In this document: in pieces, positions 47,897 to 53,386 of the stretch
How positions within the stretch are numbered: the first letter of the stretch is position 1
How the letters are laid out: each line of letters starts with the position of its first letter
Origin: Betaproteobacteria bacterium
Lineage (GTDB): Bacteria; Pseudomonadota; Gammaproteobacteria; Burkholderiales; Ga0077523
Reading direction: 5' to 3'
Length of the DNA stretch: 64,000 nt
Assembly (NCBI GenBank): GCA_016125475.1
Contig: WGLR01000036.1
Coordinates: forward strand, 186,001-250,000
Notes under the pieces: generated by a model
Told to the model about the DNA's origin: nothing
The model's input: only the letters and a program-made list of their open reading frames with translations
Databases searched by the model: none
Made by a program: the position numbers and the translations under genes

Positions 47897-49393
47897 ATGG
47901 GCGTTTCCGTTCTCCACAGCCGGGCACTCTCGGGCATGGACGCGCCCGAGGTCACGGTGGAGGTACACCTCGCGAACGGCCTGCCCGCGTTCACGATCGT
48001 CGGCCTCCCGGAGGCGGAGGTCAGGGAGGCCAAGGACCGGGTGCGTGCCGCGATCCAGAACGCGCGCTTCGAGTTTCCCGCGCGCAGGATCACGGTGAAT
48101 CTCGCGCCTGCCGATCTGCCCAAGGAGAGCGGGCGCTTTGATCTTCCTATCGCTCTCGGGATTCTCGCGGCGTCGGGGCAGATTCCCGGTGACGGCATGG
48201 CGCACTACGAGTTCGCGGGCGAGCTCGCGCTGACCGGGGCGCTGCGTCCCATCCGCGGCGCACTCGCGATGACGTACGGCGCGCACGCGAGCGGCCGCGC
48301 GTTCATGCTGCCGGTGGGGAGTGCCGCGGAAGCGGCGCTCGTTCCCGGCGCCCGGATCTTCGCCGCAGACTCGCTGCTCCAGGTGTGCGCGCACCTCATG
48401 GGGCGGCAGACCATCGAACGCTGGACCCGACCGCCGGATTCCGTGGTCGCGAGTCACGGAGATTTTGCGGACGTGAAGGGCCAGTCCCAGGTGAAGCGTG
48501 CGCTCGAAGTGGCGGCGGCAGGCTCGCACAGCGTGCTGCTCGTCGGTCCTCCGGGAACGGGCAAGACCATGCTCGCCGAAAGGATGCCGGGCATCCTTCC
48601 ACCCATGACGGTCGAGGAGGCCCTCGAGTCCGCTGCCATACAGTCGGTGGCAACCGGCGGATTCGATCCGGCCCGCTGGATGAGGCGCCCGTTCCGGTCA
48701 CCCCACCACACGGCTTCCGCGGTGGCGCTCGTCGGAGGCGGGAGCCACCCGCGGCCGGGCGAGGTCTCGCTCGCGATGCACGGCGTCCTGTTCCTGGACG
48801 AACTGCCGGAGTTCGACCGGGCCGTCCTCGAGGTGCTGCGCGAACCGCTCGAATCCGGCCGCATCAGCGTCGCGCGTGCGGCACGGCAAGTAGAGTTTCC
48901 GGCGCGGTTCCAGCTCGTGGCGGCCATGAATCCGTGTCCGTGCGGATTTCTCGGCCACCAGAACGGGCGATGTCGTTGCACGCCCGAGCAGGTTCGACGT
49001 TACCGCGGACGCCTCTCGGGCCCGCTGCTGGATCGCATCGACATCCAGATCGAGGTTCCGGCGATCGCGCACTCGGAGCTCACCGCACGAGTCGATGCGG
49101 AGACGAGCGAGGTCATCCGGCGTCGCGTGGTTGCCGCGCGCGACGTCGCGCTCACGCGCCAGGGCTGTCCGAACGCGCGTCTTCAGGCGGCGGGTGTCGA
49201 ACGGCATTGCACCGGTGACGACGGCGCGGAAAGGATCCTGCGAACGGCCGTCGAAAGGCTCGGTCTGTCTGCTCGCGCGTTCCATCGCGTTCGCAAGCTC
49301 GCGCGCACGATTGCCGATCTCGACGGCGATGCCGCGGTCCGGACGCCTCACATGGCCGAGGCAATCCACTACCGCCGCGCGGGTCTGGAATAG
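47897..49393 (+). CDS. comM: YifB/ComM Mg-chelatase-like AAA+ ATPase
   Basis: ComM (YifB) is a hexameric helicase that extends branch migration during natural transformation in several gammaproteobacteria. The 498-residue protein has an N-terminal ChlI-like domain (ALSGMDAPEVTVEVHLANGLPAFTIVGLPE), Walker A GPPGTGKTMLAERMPG (about 216-231), Walker B VLFLDELPEF (about 296-305) and a C-terminal Mg_chelatase_C domain. A CPCGFLGHQNGRCRC cysteine cluster near 350-364 is typical of the family. It ends 294 bases before metH; that gap carries the metH regulatory leader. Confidence 0.95.
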   Translation: MGVSVLHSRALSGMDAPEVTVEVHLANGLPAFTIVGLPEAEVREAKDRVRAAIQNARFEFPARRITVNLAPADLPKESGRFDLPIALGILAASGQIPGDGMAHYEFAGELALTGALRPIRGALAMTYGAHASGRAFMLPVGSAAEAALVPGARIFAADSLLQVCAHLMGRQTIERWTRPPDSVVASHGDFADVKGQSQVKRALEVAAAGSHSVLLVGPPGTGKTMLAERMPGILPPMTVEEALESAAIQSVATGGFDPARWMRRPFRSPHHTASAVALVGGGSHPRPGEVSLAMHGVLFLDELPEFDRAVLEVLREPLESGRISVARAARQVEFPARFQLVAAMNPCPCGFLGHQNGRCRCTPEQVRRYRGRLSGPLLDRIDIQIEVPAIAHSELTARVDAETSEVIRRRVVAARDVALTRQGCPNARLQAAGVERHCTGDDGAERILRTAVERLGLSARAFHRVRKLARTIADLDGDAAVRTPHMAEAIHYRRAGLE

Positions 49394-49518
49394 CCGATCG
49401 CAGTGGTCGGCGCCGCGGGCTTTCGACAACGCCGTCCGCGAACACGGCAGACGTTTTCCGCTCGCCGCAGCAGAGGGGATGCGCGCACGCCGGTGCGTCG
49501 TCCAGGCTTTTCGCTCGG

Positions 49519-49547
49519 TTGACAACACCACTATCGGGCGGTAGGTT
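49519..49547 (+). promoter_or_regulatory. Sigma-70-type promoter of metH
   Basis: TTGACA (49519-49524), a 17-base spacer and TAGGTT (49542-49547) form a good promoter with a perfect -35. Transcription would begin near 49554, directly at the 5' edge of the SAM-II-like aptamer. Such an exact fit supports both calls. Confidence 0.68.
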
Positions 49548-49555
49548 CGGGGACC

Positions 49556-49610
49556 TTGCGCCGATTTGAGCATCAGCTTGCGGGCGCGTAACAAATACGG
49601 CTAAAGCGAC
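49556..49610 (+). ncRNA. SAM-II-like riboswitch (metA motif) in the metH leader
   Basis: The segment matches, as I recall it, the conserved core of the SAM-II riboswitch. A first stem pairs GCGCC (49558-49562) with GGCGC (49583-49587). The apical part holds GATTT (49563-49567) and TTGC (49578-49581). After the stem come CGTAACAAAT (49587-49596) and GGCTAAAG (49599-49606), counterparts of the pseudoknot strand ending in GCUAAA. SAM-II binds S-adenosylmethionine and turns off methionine genes. An intrinsic terminator follows within six bases and metH 80 bases on, so control by transcription termination is likely. SAM-II is best known from alphaproteobacteria. Not verified by covariance search. 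Confidence 0.75.
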
Positions 49611-49615
49611 GTGAC

Positions 49616-49653
49616 AAACCCGGTCGCGAGTCGCGGTCCGGGTTTTGTTTTTT
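49616..49653 (+). terminator. Intrinsic terminator (attenuator) before metH
   Basis: AAACCCGG (49616-49623) pairs with CCGGGTTT (49638-49645), with an inner CGCGA/TCGCG stem, and a run TTTTGTTTTTT closes it. The position just after the aptamer and before metH fits a riboswitch-controlled attenuator. It could also act as the terminator of comM, whose stop is 222 bases upstream, but the interposed promoter makes that less likely. Confidence 0.85.
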
Positions 49654-49687
49654 AGCCTTTTCAACCGAATACTCAAAACGGAACGAC

Positions 49688-52600
49688 GTGCAATCAGATC
49701 GAACCCTACTCCTGCGTGAACTCCTGAAAGAGCGGATTCTCATCCTCGACGGTGCCATGGGTACCATGATCCAGGGCCATGGCCTGGAGAAGCATGACTA
49801 CCACGGTGACCGGTTTCACGATCATCACTGCGAGCAGACGGGAAACAACGATCTGTTGACACTGACGCGTCCGAAGGTGATTGCGTCGATACATGCCGAG
49901 TATCTCGACGCGGGCGCCGACATCGTCGAGACGAATACCTTCAATTCGAATCGCATCTCGATGGTCGACTACGGGATGCAGTCGCACGTGAAGGAACTGA
50001 ACCGCGAAGCCGCGCGCCTCGCGCGCACCGTTGCCGACGACTACACGGCGAAGAACCCCGACAAGCCCCGCTTCGTCGCGGGCGTGGTCGGTCCCACCAA
50101 CCGGACGGCGTCGATTTCACCGGACGTCGCGGACCCCGGCGCCCGCAACACGAGTTTCGACGAACTCGCCGAGGCCTACTCCGAATCCGTGGCGGCTCTC
50201 GTGGAGGGCGGCGCGGACATGCTTCTCGTCGAGACGGTCTTCGACACGCTGAACTGCAAGGCAGCGCTGTTCGCGATCGACGAATACTTCGAACGCAGCG
50301 GCAACCGTCTCCCGGTCTGGGTTTCCGGCACCATCACGGATCTCTCCGGGCGGACGCTGTCCGGTCAGACGACCGAGGCATTCTGGAACTCCATCCGTCA
50401 CGGTCATCTGTTCGCGGTCGGCCTCAACTGTGCGCTCGGTGCGAAGGATCTCCGTCAGTACATCGCGGAACTGTCACGCATCGCGGGCGCGTTCGTGAGC
50501 GTTCATCCCAACGCCGGCCTGCCGAACGCGTTCGGGCAGTACGACGAAACACCCGAATACACGGCGGGGCAGTTGCGCGAGTTCGCGGATTCCGGCTTCA
50601 TCAACATCGCGGGCGGATGCTGCGGCACGACGCCGGCGCACATCCGCGCGATCAGCAAGGCGCTCTCGGGCGTGAAGCCGCGGCAGGTTCCGGTGATCGA
50701 GAAGAAGCTGAGACTCGCCGGTCTCGAGCCGCTGAACATCGACGATGACTCCCTGTTCGTGAACATCGGTGAACGCACGAACGTGACCGGCTCACGCGCG
50801 TTCGCGCGCATGATCCTGAACGGGCAGTACGCGGAAGGTCTCGACGTCGGCCGGCAGCAGGTCGAGAGCGGCGCGCAGATGATCGACGTCAACATGGACG
50901 AGGCGATGCTCGATTCGAAGGCCGCGATGACGACCTTCCTGAACCTCGTCGCGTCGGAGCCCGACATCTCCCGTGTCCCGGTCGTGATCGATTCGTCGAA
51001 GTGGGAAGTCATCGAGGCAGGCCTGAAGTGCGTGCAGGGCAAGGGCGTCGTGAATTCCATCAGCATGAAGGAAGGAGAGGAGGAATTCCTGCGGCAGGCG
51101 AAGCTGCTTCGTCGTTACGGCGCCGCCGCGATCGTGATGGCGTTCGACGAGCACGGACAGGCCGACACGCTCGAGCGCCGGAAGGAGATCTGTGACCGCG
51201 CCTATCACCTGCTCGTGAAGGAGGCCGGATTCCCGCCCGAGGACATCGTCTTCGATCCGAACATCTTTGCCATCGCGACCGGCATCGACGAGCACGCCAA
51301 CTACGGCGTCGACTTCATCGATGCCACGCGGCACATCCGCAAGGCGCTTCCGCACGCGAAGGTGAGCGGCGGCGTTTCGAACGTGTCCTTCTCGTTCCGG
51401 GGCAACGATCCCGTGCGCGAGGCGATCCACACGGTGTTTCTGTATCACGCGGTGCGTGCGGGCATGACGATGGGCATCGTGAACGCCGGACAGCTCGGCG
51501 TCTACGAGGAGATACCGAAGGAACTGCGAGAGCGCGTCGAGGACGTCGTGCTGAACCGCAGGCCCGACGCGACCGAACGCCTCGTCACGTTCGCGGAATC
51601 CTACAAGGGGGAGGGCAAGACGCAGATCGAAGATCTCGCGTGGCGCGACGCTCCCGTCGAGGAGCGTCTGAAGCACGCGCTCGTGAAGGGCGTGACGCAG
51701 TACGTCGTCGCCGACACGGAAGAGGCGAGACTCAAGTACGCCCGCCCCATCCAGGTCATCGAGGGGCCGCTCATGGACGGCATGAACGTCGTCGGGGACC
51801 TCTTCGGTGCGGGCAAGATGTTCCTGCCGCAGGTCGTCAAGTCCGCTCGCGTCATGAAGGAGGCGGTCGCCCACCTGATTCCGTACATCGAGGCCGAGAA
51901 GGCCAGGTCCGGGGAGGCGTCACGCGCCAAGGGAAAGATCGTGCTCGCGACCGTGAAGGGGGACGTGCACGACATCGGCAAGAACATCGTGGCGGTCGTG
52001 CTCCAGTGCAACAACTTCGAGGTCGTCAATCTCGGCGTGATGGTGCCCGCACAGAAGATCCTCGACGTGGCCCGCGAGGAGGGCGCCGAAATCATCGGAC
52101 TGTCGGGACTCATCACGCCGTCACTCGAGGAAATGGCGAACGTCGCGAAGGAGATGGAACGGCAGGGCTTCGACGTTCCTCTTCTGATCGGTGGTGCCAC
52201 GACCTCGCGCGTCCACACCGCGGTCAAGATCGAGCCGAACTATCACGGTCCCACGATCTGGGTGCCGGACGCCTCCCGCAGTGTCGGTGTCTGCACCAAT
52301 CTCGTGTCCGAGGAACGCAGGGCCGCCTATGTCGCGGAGGTCAGGGCCGAGGCCGAGAAGACGCGCGAGCGCCACAAGGGCAAGAAAGGGCAGGGGCCCC
52401 ATCACCCGATCGCGCAGGCGCGTGACCACGGCCTCGCCACGGACTGGTCCCGGTACGAGCCGCCCGCCCCGAAGGTGCCTGGCGTTCAGGTGTTCCGCGA
52501 CTATCCGCTGGCCGAGATCGCCGCTCTCATCGACTGGACGCCGTTCTTCCAGACCTGGGAACTGTCGGGGCGTTATCCGAAGATCCTGTCCGACGAGGTG

Positions 52601-53386
52601 GTCGGGGAAGCGGCACGGAACCTGTTCGCCGACGCGCAGGCCATGCTGGAGCGCATCGTCGGTGAGCGCTGGCTCACGGCCAATGCGGTCGTCGGTCTGT
52701 TCCCTGCGAATCGCGTCGAGGGTGACGACGTGGAGATCTACGCGGACGACTCCCGCAGCGCGACGCTCGCGCGCCTGCATTTCCTCCGGCAGCAGATGGT
52801 CAAGCCCGAGGACCGTGCGAACCAGTCGCTGGCGGACCTCGTCGCGCCCAGGGAGTCCGGGCGCAAGGACTGGATCGGGGCTTTCGCGGTCACCGCGGGT
52901 GTCGGCATCGATTCGCGGGTCGCGGAGTACGAAGCGCGCCACGACGACTACAACGCAATCATGCTGAAGGCGCTCGCGGACCGTCTCGCCGAGGCCTTCG
53001 CTGAGCTCATGCACATGCGTGTGCGCCGCGAGTTCTGGGCGTATGCGGCAGACGAGGAGCTGTCCGTCGAAGACCTCATCGCGGAGCGCTATCGCGGCAT
53101 CCGGCCGGCGCCGGGCTATCCCGCCTGTCCCGATCACACGATGAAGCGGACGCTCTTCGATCTGCTCGATGCGACGTCGAACACGGGCATCGAACTCACG
53201 GAATCCTTCGCGATGCTTCCTGCGTCCGCCGTGAGCGGCCTGTACTTCTCGCACCCCGACTCGCATTACTTCGCGACGGGCCGCATCGACCGGGATCAGG
53301 TCGAGGAATACGCGAAGCGCCGCGGCATTTCCGTGCAGGAAGCCGAACGCTGGCTCGCACCCGTGCTCTCCTACGAACCGGCCTGA
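49688..53386 (+). CDS. metH: Cobalamin-dependent methionine synthase
   Basis: MetH transfers the methyl group of 5-methyl-THF to homocysteine through methylcobalamin. The 1232-residue protein has all four modules in order: homocysteine-binding (about 1-325, with zinc cysteines in LNCALG and GGCCGTT), folate-binding (about 345-620), cobalamin cap and binding (about 640-890, with the lower-ligand motif DVHDIGKN near 758-765) and the SAM-dependent activation domain (about 900-1232, with [13 protein letters not shown]). The start is a GTG at 49688 that gives the family N-terminus before [14 protein letters not shown]. The leader holds a promoter, a SAM-II-like aptamer and a terminator, so SAM levels probably control expression. 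Confidence 0.97.

Follow-up and report, generated by a model that had tools for sequence, protein, structure and literature searches.

The window, that is, the whole 64-kb stretch of DNA that we analyzed, contains a metH gene preceded by a leader with a promoter, a SAM-II (RF00521) aptamer and an intrinsic terminator (Table 1). The gene 5' of this leader encodes a Mg-chelatase-like protein, presumably of the ComM/YifB type. The same succession of elements had been proposed in a sequence-only reading, and each part of it stood: both promoter boxes, TTGACA and TAGGTT, were present with a 17-base spacing, the SAM-II-like core placed at 49556-49610 fell inside a match covering the whole RF00521 model, the proposed terminator (49616-49653) combined a hairpin with a U-rich tail, and the downstream open reading frame (ORF) matched five Pfam families of MetH domains. 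The predicted +1 lies near 49554. A generic promoter scanner did not list this promoter because its -10 box is poor, and the terminator pattern taken alone was no rarer than chance in positions 49000-50000 (1 found versus 0.7 expected).

Table 1. Elements of the metH leader, in positions of the 64-kb window
Feature	Positions	Strand	Details
Sigma-70-type promoter	49519-49547	+	TTGACA 49519-49524, spacer 17, TAGGTT 49542-49547
SAM-II (RF00521) aptamer, full-length model match	49548-49624	+	31.0 bits, E 1.3e-5
P1 5' strand GCGCC	49558-49562	+	pairs with 49583-49587
L1 GATTTG, conserved SAM-II loop	49563-49568	+	
P2 pseudoknot 5' strand CAGCTTGC	49574-49581	+	
P1 3' strand GGCGC	49583-49587	+	pairs with 49558-49562
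P2 pseudoknot 3' strand GGCTAAAGCG	49599-49608	+	
Intrinsic terminator	49616-49653	+	hairpin 49616-49645, -18.9 kcal/mol; U-rich tail up to 49653
Candidate antiterminator	49555-49630	+	49555-49568 (P1 5' strand and L1) pairs with 49615-49630 (terminator 5' arm)
metH, cobalamin-dependent methionine synthase, GTG start	49688-53386	+	five Pfam families of MetH domains

Assignment of the metH leader to SAM-II and its conservation

An Rfam scan at curated cut-offs gave no match across the 64 kb. The leader escapes such a scan because its score of 31.0 bits is below the RF00521 gathering score of 36, which is a database cut-off and not a structural feature. At a low threshold, positions 1 to 79 of the 79 in the model were matched, with an E-value of 1.3e-5 in 201 bases, and this was the top of seven matches, the next best E-value being 0.083. 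The covariance-model check suggested along with the initial proposal was therefore significant, yet under the curated cut-off. When the whole genome was scanned, the metH leader (C11:235548-235624) had an E-value of 7.7e-5; a second match with a small E-value (C3:55697-55772, 32.2 bits) preceded a metZ-like gene, and the third (E 1.95) was taken as chance. Since RF00521 at E up to 10 matched all 14 control genomes, and none of them at E ≤ 0.01, only small E-values count. Features of SAM-II found in the metH leader are the full-length model match, the P1 stem, both P2 pseudoknot strands (loop CAGCUUGC and 3' GCUAAAG) and a location before a methionine/SAM gene.

A SAM-II-type leader precedes metH in all 12 genomes of the genus that were searched (the source genome and G001 to G011). 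Ten of these leaders were found by pattern, and two have altered core bases: GTTTTG replaces GATTTG in G010, and GCTAAG replaces GCTAAA in G003, whose leader retains TTGACA and a short terminator-like hairpin. P1 and the GCTAAA strand, whose loss in close relatives had been named as grounds for rejecting the proposal, are thus kept, with G003 as the exception for GCTAAA. Two metH leaders of the genus score above the 36-bit cut-off (L012, 38.5 bits; G010:C62, 36.7 bits), and metZ leaders of SAM-II type also occur in the genus. A DNA search with positions 49540-49690 gave matches in 34 of 60 relatives, mostly across the aptamer and, in the closer ones, also across the terminator. We conclude that the metH leader is a real, conserved SAM-II riboswitch, an RNA type that is already known.

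SAM-II had initially been described as best known from alphaproteobacteria. It is less exceptional here than that implied, being common in the source order: RF00521 at E ≤ 0.01 matched 142 of 300 genomes (51 above the cut-off) and none of the 14 named controls. Scanning named genomes for the exact pattern returned at least 119 stretches; among the 80 listed, most came from alpha-, beta- or gammaproteobacteria and few from Acidimicrobiia or Planctomycetota.

Genes, structure and copy number of related leaders

The labels downstream of the leaders, assigned by tblastn, are mostly methionine/SAM genes. For 263 unique pattern matches, pooled from several searches and including a few false ones (e.g., the metH row L122 at 5060, which lies inside a gene), they were metZ (87), metX (69), metH (29), a substrate-binding protein (7), a thrA-like gene (3), metA (1) and cysI (1), with 66 unassigned. 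Loci fetched without the exact pattern (144) gave metZ 55, metX 42, metH 17 and unassigned 30. Of those 17 metH leaders, 10 belong to the source genus and the other 7 to six further genera; metH is thus a recurrent target of SAM-II and not the unusual one that the initial reading had implied. In the unassigned rows, 5 (from 4 loci) have an ORF that reads as metK and 10 have one that reads as a MATE transporter; Pfam confirmed MatE for the single MATE ORF tested.

All five P1 pairs are possible in 257 of 260 leaders (best of six registers), including changed pairs such as GTGCC/GGCAC, CCGCC/GGCGG, TCGCC/GGCGA and ACGCC/GGCGT. As 117 of the 260 came from loci fetched by a scan that fixes P1 in one copy, the other 143, obtained by similarity or with the Rfam model, are more informative: 130 have GCGCC/GGCGC, 10 have other fully paired strands and 3 are incompletely paired. 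Covariation in P2 is uninformative because its strands are nearly invariant. In the 256 of 263 matches that fit the pattern, the base after GATTT is coupled to the base before CTTGC (G/G 242, A/A 14, mixed 0), the A/A form occurring mostly in the second copy of a tandem. Common ancestry could account for this coupling.

The promoter of the leader group is conserved. The best promoter within 60 bases upstream scored at least 9 of 12 positions in 142 of 197 gene-assigned leaders, compared to 2.4% of shuffles, and the score was 9 or 10 in 15 of the 17 metH leaders among those listed. By an in-house score of at least 18, 23 of the 29 metH-labeled leaders have a terminator downstream of the aptamer, one of the other six being the false match L122; a terminator by this score is absent in 72 of the 197 gene-assigned leaders.

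Several loci carry more than one copy. Doubled SAM-II-like leaders stand before a small ORF starting M[FY]DC in all six loci read (L252, L244, L261, L275, L191 and L189), and in five of them a MATE-like ORF follows; for two small proteins of this type, from L252 and L159, a Pfam search at E up to 0.1 gave no match. At L100 (position 740) and L155 (minus strand, position 1662), the GCTAAA strand of the second copy runs into a Shine-Dalgarno-like sequence and a start codon, an arrangement that suggests a putative translational second switch. Three genomes of the genus have a third SAM-II copy (L335 in G005:C7, L336 in G006:C22 and L337 in G008:C90), after which another aptamer-like stretch seems to lie; downstream, an HD-domain-like ORF was read by eye in L335 and L336, and a metK-like ORF in L335. 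In Halomonas sp. SSL-5 (L093), tandem SAM-II copies lie near an ORF of the AzlC family (Pfam AzlC), a family that includes amino-acid exporters.

Proposed transcription attenuation and antitermination

We propose that the SAM-II riboswitch controls metH by transcription attenuation, which we regard as highly probable, and that the leader is probably an OFF switch that stops transcription when SAM is plentiful. Transcription would begin just 5' of P1. At high SAM, the nascent RNA would fold the P1/P2 pseudoknot, including L1, and SAM binding would keep positions 49555-49568 inside the aptamer; the 5' arm of the terminator would then be free, the hairpin at 49616-49645 would form and transcription would stop before metH. 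At low SAM, the free P1/L1 and P2 strands would pair with the 5' arm and apical region of the terminator, and this antiterminator pairing would let RNA polymerase read through to metH. What the analysis documents is the sequence, the covariance-model match, conservation, gene context, the terminator and the excess of aptamer-terminator pairing seen at the level of the group; SAM binding, the direction of the response and the use of the candidate antiterminator in the metH leader are inferred.

An effect of SAM requires a competitor to the terminator. In truncated transcripts ending at 49624-49636, the best fold pairs 49555-49568 with 49615-49630. Taken individually, this pairing was not significant: when the arm was dinucleotide-shuffled 1000 times, 107 of the shuffles were equally stable, as were 3 of 29 control terminators of the source genome; with a slightly different cut of the leader, 3 of 40 shuffles were as stable.

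The fold tests on pooled leaders drew on 125 of the 263 matches, namely those with a gene assignment whose terminator scored 18 or more. In 87 non-redundant leaders from alpha-, beta- and gammaproteobacteria, truncated transcripts with the native 5' arm were more stable by 2.27 kcal/mol than those with shuffled arms (t -7.0) and by 3.05 kcal/mol than those with control terminators, a set of 42 taken from 400 kb of the source genome (t -7.9); for the 19 metH leaders the differences were -2.29 (t -3.7) and -2.10 (t -2.9), and these t values, like the permutations below, ignore descent. At least six aptamer-arm pairs were present in the test fold of 56 of the 87 leaders (10 of the 19 metH leaders) and fewer than six in 31 (9 of the 19); 3 of the 19 metH leaders were less stable than their own shuffles. 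The excess pairing of terminator 5' arms with the aptamer therefore supports antiterminators for the group. The claim of transcription attenuation made from the sequence thus gained statistical support for the pooled leaders, whereas this leader alone is suggestive only.

No single antiterminator common to all leaders was found, the aptamer segment used differing between leaders. Duplexes with the P1 5' strand and L1 showed no general enrichment (leader terminators -7.66, shuffled -7.12, control terminators -8.66), and with the loop plus 3' arm of the terminator this segment paired worse than shuffled. The P1 3' strand paired worse than shuffled with both terminator parts, and L3 showed no excess of pairing with terminators. 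The P2 strands, on the other hand, did show excess pairing. Other leaders frequently carry a complement of the P2 5' strand in the loop and 3' arm of their terminator, where the excess was -2.50 kcal/mol (t -6.8, 83 leaders). The complementary motif AAGCTG occurred there in 35 of 185 leaders versus 3.9 expected, and is absent from this metH leader; its G-U version, TTTGGC, was not enriched (25 of 185 versus 20.0 expected). The bases that follow AGCTG, in the 48 leaders that have it, agree with the variable loop bases preceding CAGC over a mean extension of 1.48 versus 1.11 when permuted, a value exceeding all 5000 permutations. Swapping terminators between leaders left the pairing of the P2 3' strand undiminished, a result that is expected since this strand is nearly invariant and that we did not use as evidence. 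The group of leaders is large enough that SAM-II antitermination becomes testable by covariation.

We also considered the perfect complement between GGCTAAA (49599-49605) and TTTAGCC (49651-49657) as an antiterminator. It was rejected because TTTAGCC, at the end of the U-tract, is transcribed too late to prevent termination there; no other metH leader among those listed has this complement in the 12 bases that follow its hairpin. The 7-base complement gives a longer hairpin in the full transcript.

A competing explanation is that the SAM-II aptamer precedes a mostly constitutive terminator that makes a short leader RNA, SAM control being weak or exerted on translation. Translation-level or weak SAM control has been argued for the metA leader of S. 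meliloti, whose terminator strongly limits expression in both media and yields sRNAs, and for which the excerpts of that study report that no SAM-II-driven antiterminator could be predicted (PMC9373788; this and the other papers are cited from excerpts). The terminator is likewise included in the most stable fold of the full-length metH leader. We nevertheless consider a mostly constitutive terminator unlikely, given that in the pooled leaders the pairing between terminator 5' arm and aptamer exceeds that of shuffles and controls, and that the metH start codon lies 42 bases beyond the hairpin.

Other RNA classes and known elements

Another SAM or SAH class (SAM-V, SAH or SAM-SAH) might come to mind, as metH is a target of SAH riboswitches in Comamonadaceae (PMC4239095) and the SAM-II and SAM-V aptamers have been described as vaguely alike (PMC9481103), and SAM-V had been put forward as a contrast to SAM-II in the initial reading. 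This assignment is very improbable, for none of these families was among the seven matches at E up to 10, and the source genome carries a strong SAH riboswitch of its own elsewhere (G000:C8:54467-54551, 65.2 bits). Least credible of all is that the feature is the antisense small RNA RF02424 (Bp2_287) on the other strand: its minus-strand match at 49525-49648 is weak (16.3 bits, E 0.083, below the gathering score of 70 bits) and far surpassed by that of RF00521 on the plus strand, where the promoter, the terminator and metH all lie, and the RF02424 loci described below mostly carry a SAM-II core on the opposite strand.

RF02424 is named after a candidate, Cand287, found upstream of methionine genes and suggested to be a cis-acting element (Khoo 2012, PMC3521395). 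Like the leaders described here it lies before methionine genes, but its annotation is that of an sRNA encoded by the other strand. At E ≤ 0.01, RF02424 matched 34 of 120 genomes of the order, one of them above the cut-off; among the 14 controls, E. coli alone gave a match. Read from the opposite strand, the best member (G127, 107.5 bits, L283) has the form of a SAM-II leader, with a hairpin inserted in L3. Among the 30 of the 40 listed matches for which loci were fetched (L283 to L312), a SAM-II core was on the opposite strand in 24 and on the same strand in none, and was undetected by pattern in the remaining 6. The RF02424 annotation seems to describe SAM-II leaders from the wrong strand.

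The beta-proteobacterial metXZ element was presented as new by Leyn 2014, with conserved regions, a pseudoknot, an alternative fold and a terminator, in a survey whose excerpts place SAM_alpha in Rhizobiales and Rhodobacterales only (PMC4239095). It resembles our leaders in its pseudoknot built from conserved regions, with a terminator after it, and in its position ahead of metX or metZ. Our set contains metZ leaders, as in that survey, in Nitrosospira (L043) and Methylophilales (L096, and also Novimethylophilus, L035), and metX leaders in Herminiimonas, Herbaspirillum and Thauera (L079, L091 and L089, respectively). Because the choice of genes agrees with our leaders, the metXZ element, compared here by gene choice and description, is probably SAM-II, missed by the cut-off.

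In the open-license literature searched, as the best-ranked part of longer listings, we found no report of SAM-II before metH, and the excerpts of PMC8386462 contain nothing on riboswitches. Tandem SAM-II aptamers are known, including mixed transcription/translation pairs (44 examples; PMC9481103). The S. meliloti metZ SAM-II is likewise predicted to terminate transcription (PMC9373788), but it differs in its target, in belonging to an alphaproteobacterium and in having been studied experimentally. A close likeness is to the SAM-II/SAM_alpha metA element (RF00521; Corbino 2005, PMC1273637), which shares the P1 and P2 pseudoknot, GATTTG and GCTAAA, a promoter a few bases before P1 and an intrinsic terminator past P2. 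That study described a promoter just before P1, frequent terminators and a few cases beyond alphaproteobacteria, and the legend of one of its figures includes Bordetella and Coxiella. Unlike the metA element, the leader described here controls metH, belongs to what we take to be a betaproteobacterial order and scores under the Rfam cut-off. With it, SAM-II control reaches the final step of methionine synthesis, and does so in a lineage for which the excerpts of the PMC4239095 survey list none.

On balance we favor the view that the metXZ element, RF02424 and the metH leaders are all SAM-II, many of them just below the Rfam cut-off, and that antiterminators arise locus by locus as terminators acquire the complement of P1/L1 or P2; in AGCTG leaders the terminator would even track the variable loop bases beside P2. 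Such a view offers one way to explain both an orphan RNA element and an Rfam family seemingly on the wrong strand.
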